A stretch of DNA of 64,000 nucleotides from contig NZ_CP059572.1 of assembly GCF_019175365.1 (NCBI RefSeq), forward strand, positions 4,464,001 to 4,528,000, in the 5' to 3' direction. A model generated the notes under the pieces. That model did no database searches. It was not told the origin of the DNA and saw only the letters and a list, made by a program, of their open reading frames with translations. Both the position numbers and the translations under genes were made by a program. Positions 31,679 through 40,867 of the stretch are shown here, piece after piece; position 1 is the first letter of the stretch, and every line of letters begins with the position of its first letter. The DNA is from Actinomadura graeca. Lineage in GTDB: Bacteria > Actinomycetota > Actinomycetes > Streptosporangiales > Streptosporangiaceae.

Positions 31679-32020
31679 ATGGTTGACGTGACGCTGGATG
31701 TAGATGCTGATCCGATGCCACTCGTGGTGCTGCAAGCTGAAACATGGGAGCTGCACGTCTGGGCGCCTCTTGCGGACCTGTCCCGCCTGAGCGAGATCCG
31801 TTCGGCAAGCTGGGATGAGCGGAGATCACTCCAGGTAGGCACATGCGGAGACTCGCCGGTGTTCTGGGTGGTCGCCGACAACGGGCGAGCGACGGTGCTG
31901 ATCGGGCAAGACGACGAGACCTGGGATCTCGCGCTGATGATCCCGCTCACAGCAGTGGACGAGATTGTCGCCCTAGCTGTATTGATCACGGACGTTGTTG
32001 ACACGGCTGAGGGTGGTTGA
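31679..32020 (+). CDS. Hypothetical protein, 3' end probably altered by IS insertion
   Basis: This 113-aa acidic protein from the ATG at 31679 is rich in beta-strand and Asp/Glu (DVTLDVDADPMPLVVLQAET, WVVADNGRATVLIGQDDETW). No family was recognised. Its last codons (VDTAEGG) run into the left end of the IS481 remnant: TGTTGACAC, a plausible IS terminus, starts at 31996. The native C-terminus was therefore probably replaced. It may have been an immunity-like or small regulatory protein, but nothing supports a specific role. Confidence 0.5.
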   Translation: MVDVTLDVDADPMPLVVLQAETWELHVWAPLADLSRLSEIRSASWDERRSLQVGTCGDSPVFWVVADNGRATVLIGQDDETWDLALMIPLTAVDEIVALAVLITDVVDTAEGG

Positions 32021-32027
32021 TCAATAG

Positions 32028-32079
32028 GAAGACCTCCGGTGTGGTGGAGGTGTCGAATCTGCACCACACGGAGGTCTTC
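32028..32079 (+). repeat. Long inverted repeat just before the IS481 transposase
   Basis: GAAGACCTCCGGTGTGGTG and CACCACACGGAGGTCTTC pair over about 18 bp with one bulge, leaving a loop of about 15 nt. The stem ends directly at the GTG start codon, so it could sequester the ribosome-binding region or stop incoming transcription. Confidence 0.75.
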
Positions 32080-32538
32080 GTGTCCCACCGTAACGCCCGG
32101 CTGACCGTCCACGGTCGCCGCCTGCTCGTCGAGCGCGTCCGGTCCGGCCGCCCGATCGCCCATGTCGCCGCCGAGATGGGCATCTGGCGTGCCACCGCGC
32201 ACAAATGGGTGGCCCGGTGGCGTGCCGAGGGCGAGGCCGGGCTGCACGACCGCTCCAGCCGCCCCCGCCGCACACCGCACCGCACTCCGGCCCACCTGGA
32301 GGAGCAGGTGTGCTTGCTGCGCCGCGACCGCAAGCCCGGCCCGGCCCGCATCGGCCCGATCCTGGGCATGGCGCCCTCGACCGTGCACCGCATGCTGACC
32401 CGCCACCGCCTGAACCGGCTGGCCTGGCTCGACCGCCCCACCGGCCAGGCCATCCGCCGCTACGAACGCGACCGGCCCGGTGAACTGGTACACGTGGACG
32501 TCAAGAAACCCGGCCGCGTCCCCGACGGCGGCGGCTGA
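32080..32538 (+). pseudogene. Truncated IS481-family transposase
   Basis: The N-terminal HTH region is well preserved (RLTVHGRRLLVERV, AAEMGIWRATAHKWVARWR, LHDRSSRPRRTP), and the frame reaches the first catalytic strand (ELVHVDVKKPGRVPDGGG). It then meets TGA where family members have Trp (GGW-RVHG): the following codons still read RVHG. A short continuation degrades by about 32570. The DDE domain is therefore missing and the enzyme is inactive. The residual N-terminus could still bind the IS end. Confidence 0.85.
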
Positions 32539-32750
32539 CGCGTCCACGGCAAGGCCAAGCCAACCATAGACGCTTATCAGGTCGGTTGACTCACGAGCAC
32601 GCAGTGTTTCTCTGCTCACCGAAGTCCCAAACCGGTCACCATCAGGGAAGTTCCACTCAACTCCCCCTAAGGTCAGCATGGAGCACACCTATATCCCGCA
32701 CCCCGACAAGACAGCCACCAGGCTCCATCACTCCACATAGACAGGTGCAC

Positions 32751-35700
32751 ATGCCAGCGAAGCCTCCGCTCTCTTCGTTGTCGGACAAGGCTGCCGAGGC
32801 CGTTTCGCGATTCGGCAAGGCTGCTGCCGCCAAGCTGAGGGGTGGCGGAGGGCCTGAGGATCAACTCCGGGCTCCGCTCGAACGGCTATTCGAAGACATC
32901 GCGGAGGGCCTGGGAGTCTCCATCACGATGATCGGGGAGACCTCGCTTGCGACTCTCGGTGTACGCCCTGACTATGCGGTAGACGTCGCCAGCGCGCGAG
33001 TAGGATACGTCGAACTTAAGGCCCCGGGACGGGGGGTGCCGAGCACTTGGACCCCCAACAGGCATGAGAAGGAGCAATGGGAGAAGCTTCGACTACTCCC
33101 TAACGTCCTTTACACCGATGGCTGTCAGTGGGCGCTGTACCGAGATGGCGAGCTGGTCGGGCAAGTCGCCCGGCTAGATGGAGACATTCGCAAGGCGGGG
33201 GCCAAGCTTGTTCCCGCTAATGGCGAATTCCTACGAACGATTTCTGAGTTCCTACTGTGGAAGCCTGACCCACCAAGGAATGTACCTCAGCTCGTGCGGG
33301 CCGTCGCTGGCCTGTGCAGGCTGCTCCGCACAGAGGTCATCGAGGCTATCGGCCGAGAAATGCGCGGAGAAGAGAAGACAAAAGTATTTACCAAGCTGAC
33401 CGTCGACTGGCGCAACATGCTGTTTCCCGGGCTGACGCACGAAGAGTTCTCTGATGCCTACGCTCAGACGGTTACCTTTGCTCTGCTCCTAGCGCGCGTC
33501 GACGGCATTGCCTTCGAAAACCGCACAGCCAGCCAGATCGCCGCCCAACTCGGCAAGACCCATTCCCTGATGGGCAAGGCCCTCACCGTCCTAGCCCACG
33601 ATGCCATCGAAGAGCGCAGCGTCGTGGCAAAGACTCTAAAACGCATCATCGGAGTGGTCGACTGGGACGAGATCAGCGACGGGTCAGCGGATTCCTATCT
33701 GCATCTGTATGAGCGTTTCCTTGATGTCTATGACGCCGACCTAAGGAAGCAAAGCGGCTCCTACTACACGCCAAACGAGACTGTCTCGTTCATGGTCCGC
33801 TTCACTGAAGACATATTGTCCAGCAAGTTCGGACGAAAGGGCGGCTTCGCGGCCGACGACGTTATGGTCGTTGACCCGGCCATGGGAACTGGAACATACC
33901 TGCTCAACATCATCGAACGCGTCGCTCGGGCAGTGGAGGAAGAGGAGGGGCCTGGAGCGGTCCCAGGGCAGCTCAAAAAGCTATTCGGCCGATTGATCGG
34001 CCTAGAGCGGCAGACAGGACCATTCGCCGTCGCCGAATTACGGCTAAATCAGGCTATCAAAGCAGAATACAAAGCCGAGGTCGCTGAAGAGGATCAAAAG
34101 CTTTTCGTGGCCGATACTCTCGACAGCCCGTTTGAAAACACCGGCCTTGACCTTGGATCGATGTACGAACCAATCGTGCGTTCTCGTCGTGAGGCCAATA
34201 AGTTCAAGCGAGAAACTCGGGTTCAGGTAGTCATCGGAAATCCACCCTATCGTGAGCACGCCAAGGGCTTGGGCGGCTGGATTGAGCAGGGCGCCGAGAA
34301 CTCCGGCCATAACGTGCCCCTGCTCGACTTCAAGGCCACTGGACGCGGTAAGTACGAGTACGTATTGTCAAATCTATATATCTACTTTTGGCGGTGGGCC
34401 ACCTGGAAGGTTTTCGACGCCCATCCTGAACAGCCTTCGGGCATCGTGGCGTTCATCACCACCTCGGGTTATACCACTGGTCCCGGGTTCGCCGGCATGC
34501 GCGAATACCTGCGCCGCACGGCCGACGAGGGATGGATTATCGATGTTTCCCCCGAAGGTCATCAGCCTGAGGTTAGCACTCGCATTTTTCCCGGCGTACA
34601 ACAACCTCTTTGCATCGGCATTTTCGCTCGCTATGGCGAAGGTGATCGGCAGATGCCAGCTCGGATCCACCACATAAGCTTGTCGGGTCGCCGCACGCAG
34701 AAGTTCGCCCGACTTGAAGCGATAACTCTCGATGACCCATCATGGACCGAATGCGCTACCGGCTGGCAGGACCGTCTTCAGCCGCCTGGCGGGGATGACT
34801 GGCTCGGTTACCCATCGCTGGGAGACCTAATGCCATGGAAAGCCCCAGGGGTCAAGCCCAATCGAACCTGGGTTTATAGCCCCGATCCTGAGACACTGCG
34901 CACCCGCTGGGATCGATTGATCAAGGCGCCACGCGACGAACTGGCCACACTTTTCAAGGAGAGTGATTCACGAAAGATCGACTCCGTCATCAAGCCGATA
35001 TATGGATTTGTTGACCATAAGGGGGTAATTGGAGATGAGACCACATCATGCCCGATACCGGTACGAGTGGCTTATCGTTCCTTCGATAGGCAGTGGGTCA
35101 TCCCTGATACACGAGTTCATCATCGGCCAAGCCCAGACCTTTGGCGAGTAGCGAGCAACTCCCAAATATTCGCTACCGAGCAGCATGGCCAGCTAGTCGA
35201 GGGCGGTCCCGGGTTGACCTTCGCTGCGTTTGTACCTGACATGGATCACTTCAACGGACGTGGTGGGCGGGTACTTCCGCTGTATCGGGATCGTGTGGGG
35301 CTAGCACCCAACCTCGCCCCCGGTGTGACGCGTCTGCTCTCCGAGCGGCTCGGCCGCGTCGTCACCCCGACCGACGTCCTGGCTTACATCGCCGCTCTAG
35401 TCGCTCATGGCGGCTACACCGCACGCTTCGGAGCAGAACTACGCACCCCGGGTGTACGGGTACCGCTCACCGCCGACTCCGTGCTGTGGGAGAGAGCCCT
35501 GGCCGTCGGGCGGCGGGTCCTTTGGCTGCACACCTACGGGGAACGCTTCGCCGATCCAGCCGGCAATCGCCCGGCAGGGCCCCCCAAAGCCCCCTTAACC
35601 AGTCGACCTAAGGTCCAGGTCGCAATCCCTGGTACGCCCGAGAATATGCCCGACGACATCTCATACGATCCACAAACGACTACCCTCCACATCGGCACTG

Positions 35701-36056
35701 GACAAGTCTCGCCGGTGCGTCCCGAAGTCTGGGCATATGTGGTCTCCGGGATGAAGATTGTTAAGAAGTGGTTCGGCTATCGTAAGAAGGGCCCAGCCGG
35801 ACGCAAGTCGTCACCCCTGGACCACATCCACCCCGATTACTGGCCCGCGGACTTCACCACCGAACTCCTGCAACTGCTCAACGTTCTGACACTGTGCGTG
35901 GAACTGGAGCCTGAGCAGGCCGAACTACTCGAACACGTCTGCGCTGGCCCGCTCGTCACCGTAACCGATCTGGAGAAGGCCAAGGTCTTTCCCGTTCCGC
36001 CATCATTCCAGAAGCCCCCCGCTATCGAGGAAGACAAGGGGGACACGCTCATCTGA
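32751..36056 (+). CDS. Single-chain restriction-modification enzyme (type IIG/ISP-like)
   Basis: This 1101-aa protein starts at the ATG at 32751. The N-terminal 150 aa look like a PD-(D/E)xK nuclease (VRPDYAVDV then GYVELKAPG). A helical region follows, then an N6-adenine methyltransferase core with YYTPNETVSFMV, motif I DPAMGTGTYLL (about 374-384) and motif IV NPPY (497-500). The C-terminal 500 aa resemble the type ISP/IIG target-recognition part. No helicase domain is visible, unlike the long LlaGI-type enzymes. No separate R, M or S gene is adjacent. Base composition is clearly more AT-rich than the chromosome, indicating horizontal acquisition. It probably acts in phage defence. Confidence 0.85.
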   Translation: MPAKPPLSSLSDKAAEAVSRFGKAAAAKLRGGGGPEDQLRAPLERLFEDIAEGLGVSITMIGETSLATLGVRPDYAVDVASARVGYVELKAPGRGVPSTWTPNRHEKEQWEKLRLLPNVLYTDGCQWALYRDGELVGQVARLDGDIRKAGAKLVPANGEFLRTISEFLLWKPDPPRNVPQLVRAVAGLCRLLRTEVIEAIGREMRGEEKTKVFTKLTVDWRNMLFPGLTHEEFSDAYAQTVTFALLLARVDGIAFENRTASQIAAQLGKTHSLMGKALTVLAHDAIEERSVVAKTLKRIIGVVDWDEISDGSADSYLHLYERFLDVYDADLRKQSGSYYTPNETVSFMVRFTEDILSSKFGRKGGFAADDVMVVDPAMGTGTYLLNIIERVARAVEEEEGPGAVPGQLKKLFGRLIGLERQTGPFAVAELRLNQAIKAEYKAEVAEEDQKLFVADTLDSPFENTGLDLGSMYEPIVRSRREANKFKRETRVQVVIGNPPYREHAKGLGGWIEQGAENSGHNVPLLDFKATGRGKYEYVLSNLYIYFWRWATWKVFDAHPEQPSGIVAFITTSGYTTGPGFAGMREYLRRTADEGWIIDVSPEGHQPEVSTRIFPGVQQPLCIGIFARYGEGDRQMPARIHHISLSGRRTQKFARLEAITLDDPSWTECATGWQDRLQPPGGDDWLGYPSLGDLMPWKAPGVKPNRTWVYSPDPETLRTRWDRLIKAPRDELATLFKESDSRKIDSVIKPIYGFVDHKGVIGDETTSCPIPVRVAYRSFDRQWVIPDTRVHHRPSPDLWRVASNSQIFATEQHGQLVEGGPGLTFAAFVPDMDHFNGRGGRVLPLYRDRVGLAPNLAPGVTRLLSERLGRVVTPTDVLAYIAALVAHGGYTARFGAELRTPGVRVPLTADSVLWERALAVGRRVLWLHTYGERFADPAGNRPAGPPKAPLTSRPKVQVAIPGTPENMPDDISYDPQTTTLHIGTGQVSPVRPEVWAYVVSGMKIVKKWFGYRKKGPAGRKSSPLDHIHPDYWPADFTTELLQLLNVLTLCVELEPEQAELLEHVCAGPLVTVTDLEKAKVFPVPPSFQKPPAIEEDKGDTLI

Positions 36057-36223: not shown

Positions 36224-37155
36224 TTAGGGGGTGAGTCGGGTGAGAGTGCGGCGGGTTTGGTCGGCGAGGCTGACGGCGGCGCCCAGGCGGTTGTCGATGG
36301 TGAGGTGGGCCGCTGTGGGTGGGTCTTCGGTGTTGAGGGTGCTGGTGTACTCGTCCCAGTGGGTCAGCTCCAGCTGTCGCGGGGGGCATCGCGGAGTTCG
36401 ATGTACTCGTGCATGGTGTCGAGGTCGCTGTGGACCCAGATGGACGTCACGTCCACGCCTTTGGCTTGGCAGCCGTGGGTGAGGCGTGGGAGCCAACTGG
36501 GGTTGTTGAGTTCGGAGATGACCGGGGCGGCGAGGATGAGGGAGATGCCGCATTCGGTGTTGTTGTAGGCGACGTTCAGCAGGGATCGGTACTCGTGCGG
36601 GCGGACCTGGGTCTTGTAGAGGTCGGTGTGGCGGTCGTGGCGGTCGGCGCCTAGGGAGATCAGGAGGCGTTCGGTCATGCGGCGGGTGAGGGCGTCCTTG
36701 TCGAGGAGTGCCCAGCCGGACAGGTCCGAGAGGAAGCGGGCGAACTCGGTCTTGCCCGATCCGGCGTAGCCGCCCACCAGGACCAGGACGGGATTGCCTC
36801 CGGCGTTGGCTACGGCTCGGCCGTGCCATGCGTTGGCGAGTCTGGTCTTGAGGGTCTCGGCGCCGGGGAAGAACGCCGACAGGTCGAACGGGGTGCCATC
36901 CAAGCCTGGTTCGTTGCCGTGGGCTTGGGCGGCCATGCGTTCCAGGACGGTGAGCGGGACGTTGTGCGCGCGGGCGAGGTAGGGCAGCCAGTCGTCGGGG
37001 ATGCGTAGGCCGCGTTCCCAGTGGGATACCTCGTGTCGGGTGAGGGTGTGGGTTGCGGCGAGGGCGCATAGTTCGGCGGCGAGGGCGCGTTGGCTTCTGG
37101 TGCCGCGTAGGCGCGCGAGGTAGGCGCCGAACTCTCGTCGTGCCTGGGTGGTCAT
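36224..37155 (-). pseudogene. HTH plus P-loop kinase gene 1, single-base frameshift near the 3' end
   Basis: The intact part (263 aa, 37155 to 36364) has an N-terminal XRE-type HTH (LAAELCALAATHTLTRHEVSH, WERGLRIPDDWLPYLARAH). A P-loop kinase follows with Walker A GGYAGSGKTEF, then LLDKDALTRRMTERLL. The kinase part is closely similar to the paralogue at 38786-39859. At about 36377 the paralogue reads DTWKLAHWDEY, whereas here one base is missing after Trp and the frame stops (DSWS*). The lost tail (LTHWDEYTSTLN ... LTRLTP) is intact in the next frame down to 36224. The zeta/CPT-like fold suggests a small-molecule kinase, possibly a fused PezAT-like toxin-antitoxin. Confidence 0.75.
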
Positions 37156-37295
37156 CGTTGGTCACCTCCCGTGTTCAAGTCTGGCCCCCTGCTGGCCCCC
37201 TGTCAGGCTCCTTTGCCGATCGCGGGACGGCGGCACGCTGGTCGCCATGCCGGACGGACCGTCCGGGCTGACGACCGACCACGAGGAACCCCGCG

Positions 37296-37535
37296 ATGAG
37301 TACGCGTGCCGAGGACGAAGAGCCGGCGCTCCGCCAGCTCCGAGAAGAGTTCACCGGGCATCGGATCTGGCGCTCGCAGCGTCCGGACGGGCAACCGAGC
37401 ATCTGGGTCGCGACGCTGTTCGACCCGGACGCCGGGGTTGATGCCACGGTGATCAGTCCTGATCCGGTGGAGTTGCGCGAGGCGCTGCTCAAGGAGGGCC
37501 GTCGCGCGGGCGGTCGGTCAGGTAGGGCCTGGTGA
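37296..37535 (+). CDS. Small hypothetical protein (79 aa)
   Basis: This acidic protein has a compact alpha/beta pattern (ALRQLREEFTGHRIWRSQRP, SIWVATLFDPDAG, TVISPDPVELREALLKE). No known motif is visible. It begins a three-gene plus-strand set, overlapping the next start by a few bases. It lies between the two HTH-kinase genes and diverges from kinase gene 1. Such small genes often accompany regulators in actinobacterial integrative elements; the function is unknown. Confidence 0.65.
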   Translation: MSTRAEDEEPALRQLREEFTGHRIWRSQRPDGQPSIWVATLFDPDAGVDATVISPDPVELREALLKEGRRAGGRSGRAW

Positions 37536-37957
37536 TGGCGCGCACGCCCCCGGCGTCATCATCAGACGGGGCCGCTGCTAACCGGGAGGCGGCCTCGGTG
37601 GGGGAGGTAGAGGCGGCGCGGCCGGTGCTTGTCCCCTCGGCTGCACTGGCCGCGCGGCTTCTGACCAGGTGGCGGACGCGTCGGCTTCTCAATCGGCTCC
37701 GGCGCGCCTTGTGTCGGGACGGATGGACGGCTGAGGCGCGCTATGACGACTCCCCCGTCATGCTGCGGGTGTACCGCTCGGAAACGCCGTGCATAGGCGA
37801 CAGTGTCACGGTCGTGGCTGGTCCCGGTGGGTGGTGGTACCGATCGAGTACCGGTGATCTGCTTGCGCCGTGCTCACGTGTCGAGGTCGCCGTGAAGGCG
37901 GTTTCGGCGTTGCTGCTCCCCTGGACGGCCAGGTCCCGGAGCGCGGGCGAGGGCTGA
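37532..37957 (+). CDS. Hypothetical protein (141 aa)
   Basis: The start is GTG at 37532 or ATG at 37535, overlapping the upstream stop. The first 40 residues are low-complexity Ala/Ser. The rest is alpha/beta with RLLNRLRRALCRDGWTAEAR and a strand pair around DSVTVVAGPGGWWYRSSTG. No family was recognised. It is the middle gene of a three-gene set with overlapping stops and starts, so translation is coupled. Confidence 0.6.
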   Translation: MMARTPPASSSDGAAANREAASVGEVEAARPVLVPSAALAARLLTRWRTRRLLNRLRRALCRDGWTAEARYDDSPVMLRVYRSETPCIGDSVTVVAGPGGWWYRSSTGDLLAPCSRVEVAVKAVSALLLPWTARSRSAGEG

Positions 37958-38160
37958 TGAACGCCCAGGGCGCGATGCCTGGAGCGTCGGCCTTGGGTGA
38001 GTTGGAGAAACGGTACGGGGTTATGTGCTGGTGGGGGCTACATACCCGAACGTTCTGGGCGTTGGTGCCTGCTGACGGACGATGGCGCCTGGTCGAAGCA
38101 CTGACCGTTAAGGAACTGGACACGGCAATCCGACATCCGCGCGGGTGGCCGTGGCCCTAG
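37957..38160 (+). CDS. Hypothetical protein (67 aa)
   Basis: The ATG at 37957 overlaps the upstream stop (TGATGA). The sequence has aromatic-rich strands (YGVMCWWGLHTRTFWALVPA) and a short helix (VKELDTAIRHPRG). The family is unknown. The coupled start supports it as a real gene of the same small operon. Confidence 0.55.
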   Translation: MNAQGAMPGASALGELEKRYGVMCWWGLHTRTFWALVPADGRWRLVEALTVKELDTAIRHPRGWPWP

Positions 38161-38201
38161 TGCAGCCGCGCGGCGGGGCCGTTCACCCGCCGCGCGGCTT
38201 T

Positions 38202-38789
38202 CTATGTGATGACGGGCAGGACAGGGACGCCGGGGCCTGGGCCGGCGGCCACGGCAGCGGCGATGCGGCGGGCCGTCTCAGCTGGCTCGGCCTGGTCGGT
38301 ACGGATGGCGAGGTTGAACGGCTGGGCGTCGGTGGACTGCAGGTCGTGGAGCGTCTCGTCCCATGCTTGGAGACGGCTGGGGGTGTCGGCGTCCCCGCGG
38401 TGCCGGGAGCGGTCGGCGCAGACTTCGCGCGAAACCCACAGGAGAACGTTCGTCCATGCCAGAGGGACAGTGTTGTGGAGGCGCTCTAGGTCAGCGAGGT
38501 TGCCTATGTGCACGACCGGGATCCTGCCGTCGTCGACCAGGGCGGCGATGTCATGGTGGTCGATGGCGTAGACGTTGCCGTAGCGGTGGGTCTCCACGAC
38601 CAGGCGGCCCGCGCGGCGGAGGGTCTCCAGTTCGGTGGGTGAGACGTGGCGGTAGCCGGTGCTGCGGCCGGTGCCGGTTTTGAGCTTGGGGAGCAGGGCG
38701 TACCGGTCGTCCTGGCGTGCCAGCTCGGCGGTGACGGTGTCCTTGCCGCTGGTCGGCGGGCCGTAGAGGATGACGCCCTTGCTGGTCAT
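38202..38789 (-). CDS. Guanylate-kinase-like P-loop protein
   Basis: This 195-aa protein opens with Walker A GPPTSGKDTV (Asp after Lys, where kinases usually have Ser/Thr). It contains TGTGRSTGYRHVS and ETHRYGNVYAID, in the positions of the GMP-binding segment of guanylate kinases (GRSTGYRHVS resembles the RPxRPGE region only loosely). Its start overlaps the stop of HTH-kinase gene 2 by 4 bp, so the two are coupled. It is probably a nucleotide-like kinase with unusual specificity rather than the housekeeping Gmk. Confidence 0.75.
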   Translation of the reverse strand: MTSKGVILYGPPTSGKDTVTAELARQDDRYALLPKLKTGTGRSTGYRHVSPTELETLRRAGRLVVETHRYGNVYAIDHHDIAALVDDGRIPVVHIGNLADLERLHNTVPLAWTNVLLWVSREVCADRSRHRGDADTPSRLQAWDETLHDLQSTDAQPFNLAIRTDQAEPAETARRIAAAVAAGPGPGVPVLPVIT

Positions 38790-39829
38790 GACAGGACCCT
38801 ACGCAGTGCCTCCCGTGTCTGGTCGGCGATGCTGATCGCGGCGCCTAGCCGGTTGTCGACGGTGAGGTGGACGCCGGGCGGGCTGGTCTGGGTGTCGATG
38901 CTGCTGGCGTACTCGTCCCAGTGGGCGAGCTTCCAGGTGTCGCGGGGGGCGCCTCGGAACTCGATGTATTCGCGCATGGAATCGATGTCGCATCGAACCC
39001 AGATGACTGCGACGTCCACGCCCCTGGCCTTGCAGCGGTTGGTGAGACGGCTCAACCATGCCGGATCCTTCAACTCGGAGATGAAGGGGGCTGCGAGGAT
39101 CGTGGATATGCCGCAGTTGATGTTGTCGTTGGCGGTGTCCATGAGGCACTTGTATTCCAGGGGCCGGACCTCTTTCAGGTAGAGGTCGGTGTGCCGGTCG
39201 TGCGGATCGCCGTCCAGGGAAGTCAAGAGTCGCTCGGTGAGGCGACGGGTCAGCGAGTCCTTGTCGAGGAACGCCCACCCGGACACGTCGCCGAGAAAGC
39301 GGGCGAACTCGGTTTTGCCCGATCCGGCGTAGCCGCCGACCAGGACGAGGGTGGTTGTGCCGAGACTGCCGCTCATGGCTCGTCCTCGCCATGCGCCGAC
39401 GACGCGCGCCTTGAGGGCGTCGCCAGCGGAAGGGTCCTGGTCCTGGGTGTGGTCCGATACCCGGTCGAGCCCTTGGGAGATGGTCGCGGCTGCGTCGTCG
39501 GTGGCTGCGGGGTTGAGCGGGCTCGGCAACGGAAGCGTGAGGTCGCCGGCCTCTTCGGCGGGGAGCGGGAGGCGGAAGCCTAGTTCGGGCTCGGTGGCCT
39601 TGTACATCAGGCAGTAGGCGCGGCGGTAGTGCGGGCCTGGGTAGGTGTTGCCGTTCTCGTGTTCCCACAGGGTTTGGAAGTTGGCTGCGACATTGAGCCC
39701 TCCGCGCCGTGCGACGTGGCGCAACTGGTCGCCTGCGGCTTCGAGGCTCAACCCGTGCTTCTCTCTGCGCTCCCGGAGTTTGTGAGGATGCCAGCCTTTG
39801 CGCTGTTTGAGCGTGCTCAAATTTGGCCT
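38786..39829 (-). CDS. HTH plus P-loop kinase gene 2 (paralogue of gene 1)
   Basis: The frame spans 38786-39859. I place the start near 39829 because the first residues upstream look non-coding, but it is uncertain. The N-terminus is an HTH-like domain (WHPHKLRERREKHGLSLEAA) unrelated to that of gene 1. A linker, then the kinase domain follow: GGYAGSGKTEFARFLGDVSG, FLDKDSLTRRLTERLL, RHTDLYLKEVRPLEYK, DVAVIWVRCDIDSMREYI and C-terminal TWKLAHWDEYASSID. The kinase fold resembles zeta toxins and chloramphenicol phosphotransferase. It is coupled to the guanylate-kinase-like gene. The pairing of one kinase domain with different HTH domains is notable. Confidence 0.78.
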   Translation of the reverse strand, partial: RPNLSTLKQRKGWHPHKLRERREKHGLSLEAAGDQLRHVARRGGLNVAANFQTLWEHENGNTYPGPHYRRAYCLMYKATEPELGFRLPLPAEEAGDLTLPLPSPLNPAATDDAAATISQGLDRVSDHTQDQDPSAGDALKARVVGAWRGRAMSGSLGTTTLVLVGGYAGSGKTEFARFLGDVSGWAFLDKDSLTRRLTERLLTSLDGDPHDRHTDLYLKEVRPLEYKCLMDTANDNINCGISTILAAPFISELKDPAWLSRLTNRCKARGVDVAVIWVRCDIDSMREYIEFRGAPRDTWKLAHWDEYASSIDTQTSPPGVHLTVDNRLGAAISIADQTREALRRVLS

Positions 39830-40090
39830 TTCGAGGGTAGTGGCGCATACCAGCATCAATCGGCATGTCTCATCATCGGCGTAGGCTCATGAAAGCGGAC
39901 GTATAAACGGACGTGAAAGAACCCGATGAGGAATTGACGATAGGCTGAGCGTGCCTCCTGGGCGGGAATATCGGTGTGCCGAACGAGAGAGCGGACCAGA
40001 GCCGGAGGCGGTCACCGATGACAGTGGAGGATGAACAGGGGCGAACTCCTCGGGACCTCTTGGACCTGATTCCTTCCGAGCTGGACGACC

Positions 40091-40502
40091 TTACTTGCCG
40101 CGTCGATCGGCTGGCGGCGGCTCTGGAAAGACGGCCCGCTCGATCCGGGCGACCCGTTCGCCCAGGTCGCGGACGGCCGCGAGGACTTCGGTGAGCTGCT
40201 TGGTCGTCATGTCAGCATCGGCAGGCGGTGGGGTTCCCTGCGACTGCCCTTGGGCCCTGGCGCCGGCCTGGTCGCGGACGAAGACGCCCTTGCCTTGCTG
40301 GCCGATCACTGCGCCTTCGGTCCGCAACACGCTGATGGCGGCCTTCACGACTTCGGCGGACACCTCGTACTCCTCGCCGAGCCGGGCCGTGGACGGCTGT
40401 GACTAGCCGGGACTGGCCGGGGGCAAGACGTCCGTCCTGGATCTGTTTTCGCAGGTCATCGCCTATCTGAAGATAGCCGGGCCGTCCGGTCCTCTTGACC
40501 AT
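40091..40502 (-). pseudogene. Frameshifted GntR-family regulator
   Basis: From the ATG at 40502 the frame gives MVKRTGRPGYLQIGDDLRKQ and QDGRLAPGQSRL, a GntR N-terminus. It then loses the frame near 40405. The next frame continues PSTARLGEEYEVSAEVVKAA, VLRTEGAVIGQQGKGVFV and a short coiled-coil end to 40091. Together these make a complete winged-helix GntR protein of the KorSA type that controls actinomycete integrative elements. A single-base change breaks it. It lies next to the integrase remnant, as such regulators do in intact elements. Confidence 0.75.
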
Positions 40503-40544
40503 CGTCCGCCTTCCGCCGGGGGCTCTGCCCCAGTTCAGCACAGA

Positions 40545-40733
40545 CACCTTCACGACCTGCGCCATATCCACGCGACAACGCTTCTCTTGGCGGGGGTCCC
40601 CGTCCACGTGGTGGCGGCGCGGCTTGGGCACGCTGACCCGTCCATCACGCTCCGGGTGTACGCCCACGTGATCAACCAGCAGCTCGTGGAGGCGGCCGAG
40701 ATCTTCGCCAAGCGGGTGGAGGACGTGGCCTAG
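40545..40733 (+). pseudogene. C-terminal fragment of a tyrosine integrase
   Basis: Reading from about 40545 the frame gives HDLRHIHATTLLLAGVPVHV, then LGHADPSITLRVYAHVI, ending at 40733. The Arg and His of HDLRH, the LGH, and the nucleophile Tyr of VYAH are the catalytic box II residues of tyrosine recombinases. Everything upstream of this (the N-terminal arm and catalytic Arg I) is missing. It lies 62 bp from the 3' end of tRNA-Arg, the classical integration site, so it marks a decayed integrative element. Confidence 0.88.
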
Positions 40734-40786: not shown

Positions 40787-40794
40787 GAGCTGTG

Positions 40795-40867
40795 CGCACC
40801 CGAAGGGATTCGAACCCCTAACCTTCTGATCCGTAGTCAGATGCTCTATCCGTTGAGCTACGGGTGC
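40795..40867 (-). tRNA. tRNA-Arg (anticodon ACG)
   Basis: This is a 73-nt cloverleaf on the minus strand. It has acceptor stem GCACCCG/CGGGTGC, a D arm with AGCTCAACGGATAGAGC, and an anticodon stem TCTGA/TCAGA around CTACGGA. The T arm is GGGGTTCGAATCCC, and the discriminator is G. No CCA is encoded. Its 3' half faces the integrase remnant, so it is the attachment site of the decayed element. Confidence 0.96.

Follow-up and report, generated by a model that had tools for sequence, protein, structure and literature searches.

A kinase with exchangeable DNA-binding domains and its guanylate-kinase-like partner in a putative remnant of an integrative and conjugative element of Actinomadura graeca

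Introduction

What does a P-loop kinase do when it carries a DNA-binding domain in the same chain and is coupled to a second kinase? This question is raised by a locus of Actinomadura graeca lying in a stretch of 64,000 nucleotides (contig NZ_CP059572.1, positions 4,464,001 to 4,528,000), which was analysed as a whole and is called the window below. A preliminary description of the locus had reported two genes fusing a helix-turn-helix (HTH) domain to a zeta-like kinase, here called gene 1 and KIN (gene 2), with a guanylate-kinase-like gene (GK) coupled to the latter. It had suggested an undescribed toxin–antitoxin, regulatory or defence module.

The locus appears to belong to an actinomycete integrative and conjugative element (AICE). 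Host sensing and transfer control of AICEs are poorly known. The ligand of the GntR regulator KorSA was stated as not identified in 2021 (available passages of PMC8584621), and the same was stated in 2011 of the molecular mechanism of Pif immunity (available passages of PMC3218068).

Results

KIN is encoded at positions 38786..39820 of the minus strand and consists of an XRE-like HTH, a two-helix linker and an AAA_33 P-loop kinase (344 aa, model pLDDT 90.4). The listed open reading frame (ORF) covers 38786-39859(-), and TTG 39820 is the probable start, as judged from close orthologues of 344 aa. The GK-like P-loop kinase of 195 aa (38202..38789, minus strand) follows, its start codon overlapping the KIN stop by 4 nt. 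KIN and GK are an intact, coupled pair in the window. The overlap with a second P-loop kinase and the union of HTH and kinase in one chain, forming a kinase-based module, had both been recognised correctly in the preliminary description; the module lies on mobile DNA.

GK has the predicted guanylate-kinase fold and did not reach the cut-offs of TIGR03263 (Gmk; 17.6 bits, cut-off 160.45) or TIGR02322 (PhnN; 23.4 bits, cut-off 156). The position aligned with Glu70 (yeast numbering), the guanine contact of guanylate kinase according to the available part of PMC4325336, is Glu in 2 of 40 rows of a low-identity alignment. The genome of the window encodes a separate Gmk of its own. Against the Pfam family CPT (cut-off 22), the window GK scored 13.8 and a plasmid GK (L005) 38.5. 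When PDB sequences were searched using the profile of KIN, there was no match below E 0.03. Elsewhere in the genome of the window, at G000:C1:8665202-8665771, there is a distant AAA_33 kinase homologue with 30% identity; such matches of ~80 bits are present in many genomes of the family.

The occurrence of the pair was followed in three samples: the best 80 of 232 GK-like relatives from a scan of genome contigs (81 stretches with the window), 80 genomes of the window's family and 396 genomes of the phylum. Among the 80 loci, 75 have an alignment to KIN of 180 aa or more immediately before GK, which is more than chance would give. The alignment was partial in four (L052, L061, L065, L079), the HTH-less L061 reaching 178 aa, and was lacking in one (L056). 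In the family sample, where KIN matches were taken at E 1e-20, GK was present in 20 genomes and KIN directly upstream of it in 17 of these. KIN matches of more than 230 bits came from 18 genomes, 17 of them with GK and one (G069) without it. The phylum sample held GK in four genomes, the window's included, all with the kinase upstream. The preliminary description had named an unconserved neighbourhood as grounds for refutation; the neighbourhood proved to be conserved, the KIN–GK pairing recurring in other genomes. Plasmid records matching KIN numbered 94, with coverage of at least 80% in 62 and identity of at least 60% in none; 65 plasmid records matched GK.

In most Streptosporangiales loci, the divergent neighbours of the pair are genes for an FtsK/SpoIIIE-domain protein, DUF2637, RepSA and a tyrosine integrase. 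The tblastn search (E 1e-4, anywhere in the stretch) gave matches to TRA in 46, SPD in 38, REP in 36, INT in 27 and a small GntR regulator in 48 of the 81 stretches. Representatives exceed the Pfam cut-offs of RepSA (L021, 554 bits to PF20199), FtsK_SpoIIIE and Phage_integrase, and not the NCBIfam cut-offs of RepSA and TraB. On this sequence evidence the neighbours correspond to the backbone of pSAM2-type AICEs, as described in the available part of PMC3218068. For the family sample, the matches listed place RepSA (E 1e-20) at most 6 kb from GK in at least 9 of the 20 genomes, five others being left unjudged, one of them through a short contig. NUDIX boxes, sought by a regular expression, were present in 6 of the 46 stretches classed as AICEs, for which reason we discarded the idea of KIN–GK as a general substitute for the NUDIX gene of Pif. 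In L060 the match lies elsewhere in the stretch; in L051 Pfam confirmed NUDIX.

The window itself may be assigned to the same class of elements because a tRNA-Arg gene, the tail of an integrase and a broken GntR gene lie upstream of KIN, all of which the preliminary description had overlooked. The GntR-family regulator (40094..40526, minus strand), an AICE regulator in relatives, is split over two frames. It was detected by tblastn with the GntR protein of L017 (Pfam GntR, 62.6 bits), in alignments of 107 columns at 74% identity and of 44 columns at 80%. The C-terminal remnant of a tyrosine integrase (40515..40730, plus strand) was recovered by comparison with 46 integrase ORFs and matches the final 64 aa of the integrase of L063 at 72% identity (E 4e-28); its Pfam score of 20.3 bits is below the cut-off of 27.1, and the truncated integrase of L017 gave no match in the window. 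The tRNA-Arg(ACG) gene at 40794..40867 (minus strand) is the probable attachment site. The tRNA-Arg(acg)/tRNA-Ser(gct) setting, looked for in 45 of the 80 loci, also occurs with a reduced element in L023, whose copies of KIN and gene 1 have themselves decayed, and in L026, which retains KIN and GK as open frames. A 12-mer scan of the window found no direct repeat of the tRNA 3' end that could mark the far attachment site, and neither RepSA nor TRA gave a match within window positions 26001-48000. The window thus lacks intact genes for replication, transfer and integration, and only the integrase tail and the broken GntR gene remain. It seems to hold a decayed pSAM2-type AICE at tRNA-Arg(ACG).

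Gene 1 (36224..37155, minus strand) joins an HTH_31-like domain to the same kinase and is a paralogue of KIN. The two kinase domains have 64% identity over KIN residues 146-311, AAA_33 (PF13671) is above its gathering score in both kinases (38.7 and 48.2 bits vs the cut-off of 27), and the nearly identical key blocks noticed earlier, GGYAGSGKTEF, LDKDxLTRRxTERLL and HTDLY, are indeed common to both. As to the N-terminal domains, which had been called unrelated, hhalign gave a probability of 0.4% with no detectable homology, but both show weak HTH_31 matches below the Pfam cut-off, so that the word may overstate the difference.

The kinase tree was built from 71 domains chosen by the P-loop motif, namely 59 KIN domains (the window and 58 of the 80 loci) and 12 of gene 1; one short fragment and 22 loci missed by the motif, including three of Frankia and 15 of Streptomycetaceae, were left out, and the root is a midpoint only. 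All 12 gene-1 kinases formed one clade (support 100/97), which joined the Thermomonosporaceae KIN clade (89/89) at 97/93. By this grouping, the gene-1 kinase arose by one duplication from KIN in Thermomonosporaceae, together with a change of the DNA-binding domain.

Other DNA-binding domains were found on the same kinase. It is fused to a GntR winged helix in L089 (55 bits vs the cut-off of 27) and to another HTH_31-like domain in the Frankia loci L090 and L092 (21.6-22.0 bits, below the cut-off). The N-termini of KIN, gene 1 and the Frankia form gave hhalign probabilities of 0.1-0.6%, i.e., no homology, from small alignments. Beside GK, the kinase lacks an HTH in seven Streptomyces loci and in G363; the Streptomyces forms are ORFs of 200-234 aa in six loci, and that of L053 was seen by tblastn only. 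The kinase upstream of GK therefore has three N-terminal DNA-binding types, one of them GntR, or none, and gene 1 adds a fourth type.

Both KIN and gene 1 are preceded by direct repeats. The conserved, operator-like repeat upstream of KIN (39889..39908, minus strand) belongs to the class YTTNNAC-N5-YTTNCAC; in the window, the copy has a final T and falls outside the strict pattern. This strict pattern was present in 41 of the 65 HTH-KIN stretches, ~52-90 nt before the estimated start, and in none of the 15 stretches in which the kinase is without this HTH (KIN is truncated in four of the 15). No further occurrence was found in 2,368,642 strand positions. Widening the pattern added the window and 11 loci as exact matches and four more with one mismatch. 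On six plasmids the repeat was exact in one, had one mismatch in three and was missing in two. A different repeat, CAGGGGGCCAG twice, lies upstream of gene 1 (37178..37202, minus strand). Searched with at most five mismatches, it occurred exclusively upstream of gene 1, in 13 of the 81 stretches.

These results bear on the comparison with zeta toxins and PezAT made in the preliminary description. A single-chain toxin–antitoxin, in which a zeta/PezT-like kinase would be the toxin and the fused HTH or GK the antitoxin, could stabilise AICEs and plasmids, and the location of the module on both, its HTH–kinase architecture and a weak Foldseek match to the zeta complex 3q8x (E 6.3e-4) agree with such a role. 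The Zeta_toxin scores of gene 2 (15.9 bits) and gene 1 (20.6 bits), however, stay below the cut-off of 22.3 and concern the P-loop part only. The motif GTxR, which binds UDP-N-acetylglucosamine (UNAG) in zeta/PezT toxins according to the available part of PMC6362051, follows the P-loop in 0 of 34 alignment rows. That kinases without an HTH stand next to GK suggests no need for the HTH as an antitoxin, although other antitoxins among the neighbours were not searched for, and a third eroded element, L023, has lost the KIN P-loop. Zeta-like kinases that do not use UNAG exist. Since Zeta_toxin stays below its cut-off, the UNAG motif is absent, HTH-less forms occur and the genes have upstream repeats of their own, a self-regulating kinase-repressor feeding a second kinase is favoured over a zeta-type toxin–antitoxin, which we consider improbable; the zeta/PezAT label was not borne out.

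KIN–GK was also found on Streptomyces plasmids, together with genes for DUF1932 and HAD proteins. Among the plasmids L005-L010, four of six are annotated with KIN, GK and then divergent genes for DUF1932 and HAD proteins; L010 keeps this order but has genes annotated as hypothetical protein and putative hydrolase in their place, and in L007 GK forms the front part of the HAD gene, with DUF1932 next. In the Kitasatospora forms L007 and L080, GK is fused to HAD or HAD follows directly, then DUF1932, all in one direction. At the genomic loci, DUF1932 lies within 3 kb in 20 of 80 and HAD in 18 of 80. KIN and GK might be metabolic or resistance cargo, phosphorylating an antibiotic or unusual metabolite as CPT-like enzymes, with the Streptomyces DUF1932 dehydrogenase and HAD phosphatase cooperating and the HTH serving substrate induction only. 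This is possible, but on the unlikely side: none of the 20 DUF1932 loci has a RepSA match, DUF1932 gave no match in the window's own genome (HAD matches there are weak and general), the window GK is below the CPT cut-off and the position of the module beside AICE regulators is fixed.

The HTH-less Streptomyces loci (L032, L034, L036, L045, L047, L053, L061) have the order kinase, GK, a protein of ~484 aa and an SDR gene. Judged by eye, the ~484-aa protein has a repetitive sequence and C-terminal hydrophobic segments; its L047 copy had no match in NCBIfam at 0.001, in Pfam at 0.01 or among PDB sequences at 1. In L073, L083, L084, L086, L091 and L095, genes of the tRNA-synthetase-1b-like, radical SAM, Glycos_transf_3 and alcohol dehydrogenase families, assigned from one scanned representative each, diverge from KIN–GK and are perhaps a biosynthetic cluster.

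Of the two fusion genes reported earlier both are present, but gene 1 is not an unbroken frame as far as 36224. Residues 1-263 are encoded at 36364-37155, the frame is lost near 36364 and the final ~47 codons, still family-like, sit in another frame. The preservation of these codons would suit a programmed frameshift, by which gene 1 would be read through rather than broken. Against this, gene 1 is a single open frame of 306-310 codons in 11 of the 12 relatives having it among the fetched loci (it is decayed in the twelfth, L023), the gene-1 branch of the window is 0.25 long vs 0.017-0.077 within its clade of four, and the adjoining GntR and integrase genes are broken as well. We rejected programmed frameshifting, which retains hardly any probability, on account of the 11 uninterrupted relatives. 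The intact gene 1 of L028 is also long-branched (0.51), which tempers the branch of the window as a sign of decay. An assembly error may be the source of the break.

The ratio of nonsynonymous to synonymous substitutions (dN/dS) between the window and four relatives was 0.10-0.15 for KIN and 0.37-0.45 for GK, vs 0.06-0.12 and 0.19-0.39, respectively, among the relatives. For gene 1 up to the break, it was 0.21-0.29 against five relatives and 0.10-0.29 among them. KIN looks to be still under constraint, as far as averages that include the time before the decay of the element indicate.

The three tiny genes described between the kinase genes are present, but on the opposite (plus) strand. Two of them (37296..37535, cluster 13, and 37532..37957, cluster 16) are conserved, each with a tblastn match in 13 of the 81 stretches including the window. 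The third (about 37957..38160, 67 aa) looks similar to the ORFs of cluster 46 in L021 and L027 when compared by eye.

In the same low-GC island lies a type ISP restriction-modification gene (32586-36056, plus strand; N6_Mtase, Type_ISP_C), directly preceded by a fragment of an IS481-type transposase (32017-32538; LZ_Tnp_IS481, 49 bits). The mobile island and this adjoining gene could speak for an anti-phage defence module. PADLOC, though, had no match for KIN, GK, DUF1932 or HAD, its single match for gene 1 was RmrA at 10.5 bits, two phage records matched partially only, and of 87 pattern matches in viral contigs none was confirmed. The suggested defence role found no positive evidence here and is very improbable.

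Discussion

We tentatively propose, at somewhat below an even chance of being right, that the window holds an AICE remnant carrying a self-regulating two-kinase KIN–GK module, which most likely tunes the conjugative state or recipient immunity. The HTH of KIN would bind the direct repeat before its own gene and repress the KIN–GK operon, while the P-loop domain would phosphorylate a small nucleotide- or sugar-like molecule. The GK-like enzyme, which seems to have kept the basic, phosphate-binding type of acceptor site and not the guanine-recognising glutamate, would add a second phosphate to the product of KIN. KIN would leave the DNA once its kinase domain had bound a ligand or substrate, and a constant sensor and enzyme could in this way be combined with DNA-binding domains of any kind. 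Within an AICE, where it adjoins the GntR regulator and points away from the transfer genes, the module would act on conjugation or immunity through a metabolite. The structure of the genes, their conservation, the duplication together with the HTH exchange, the setting on AICEs and plasmids, the predicted folds and the repeats upstream come from the analysis itself. We infer the DNA target, the order of phosphorylation, the substrate and the effect on conjugation alike; a pair whose interchangeable HTH tracks its own repeat fits a self-repressing enzyme feeding a second kinase.

Several observations weigh against this proposal. GK is open (183-288 aa) with KIN truncated, internally deleted or absent in five of the 80 loci (L023, L052, L056, L065, L079), and three of the 20 family genomes with GK (G004, G028, G068) have no KIN match at E 1e-20. 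GK may therefore act alone, and its outlasting of intact KIN, as an antitoxin might, slightly lowers our confidence in the explanation. KIN and GK also stay open together in two eroded elements (the window and L026); this retention and GK without intact KIN are the best points for addiction or a lone-acting GK. Many of the carriers, moreover, are no AICEs: no RepSA was found near GK in 6 of the 20 family genomes, the window's among them, and the chromosomal KIN–GK copies of Streptomyces have neighbours other than AICE genes. In five Nonomuraea AICEs (L040, L041, L051, L059, L075), a NUDIX gene lies ~1 kb downstream of GK, in four of them directly after a second GntR gene, like the KorSA–Pif arrangement. 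The widened repeat is missing in 8 of the 65 HTH-KIN stretches and needs one mismatch in four. Since these loci, which are related, were themselves the source of the repeat patterns, the correlation of the patterns with the HTH is not proof of binding, and the repeats are candidate operators. The argument from the lost Glu70 likewise rests on a low-identity alignment.

A wider generalisation, that mobile elements use two-kinase signalling in which a kinase with a swappable HTH and a GK-derived diphosphate step control conjugation or immunity of AICEs and Streptomyces plasmids, seems rather unlikely at present. If it were true, the specificity of an element would be set by HTH swapping. The conserved kinase–GK pair beside AICE regulators, in which each HTH has its candidate operator, makes the question of AICE control open to direct assays. 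One kinase with exchanged DNA-binding domains is also a clear example from nature of enzyme-repressors evolving by modules. No description of KIN–GK was found in the open-licence literature, most subscription papers lying outside that search, which is in line with the earlier suggestion of an undescribed module.

The element resembles pSAM2-type AICEs, with their GntR regulator KorSA and NUDIX immunity factor Pif, in RepSA, the FtsK-domain protein, the tyrosine integrase, the tRNA site and the GntR gene. Enzymes of nucleotide type accompanied by XRE regulators are already known as a recurring feature of AICEs, as in the mdp-nud-xre cluster, and the available part of the same AICE description holds no kinase–GK module (PMC3218068). 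In contrast to the NUDIX and HD hydrolases, the enzyme pair here is an HTH-kinase and a GK-like kinase. With epsilon-zeta and PezAT, it has in common a P-loop kinase with the LDKD Asp region, an HTH component and a mobile location; it differs in the single chain, the lack of a recognised separate antitoxin, the sub-threshold Zeta_toxin score, the missing GTxR and the recurring GK. GK is distinguished from Gmk and PhnN by scores far below their cut-offs and by the guanine-contacting Glu, which is not conserved. CPT shares the P-loop kinase fold, and the plasmid GK (L005) exceeds the Pfam CPT cut-off, whereas the window GK does not, KIN has no CPT match, and a recurring partner and regulator set the module apart. 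NadR and BirA are enzymes that double as repressors, combining a DNA-binding domain and a small-molecule enzyme in one autoregulated chain. KIN would resemble them in this respect, but its DNA-binding domain is exchangeable and a second kinase is coupled to it.

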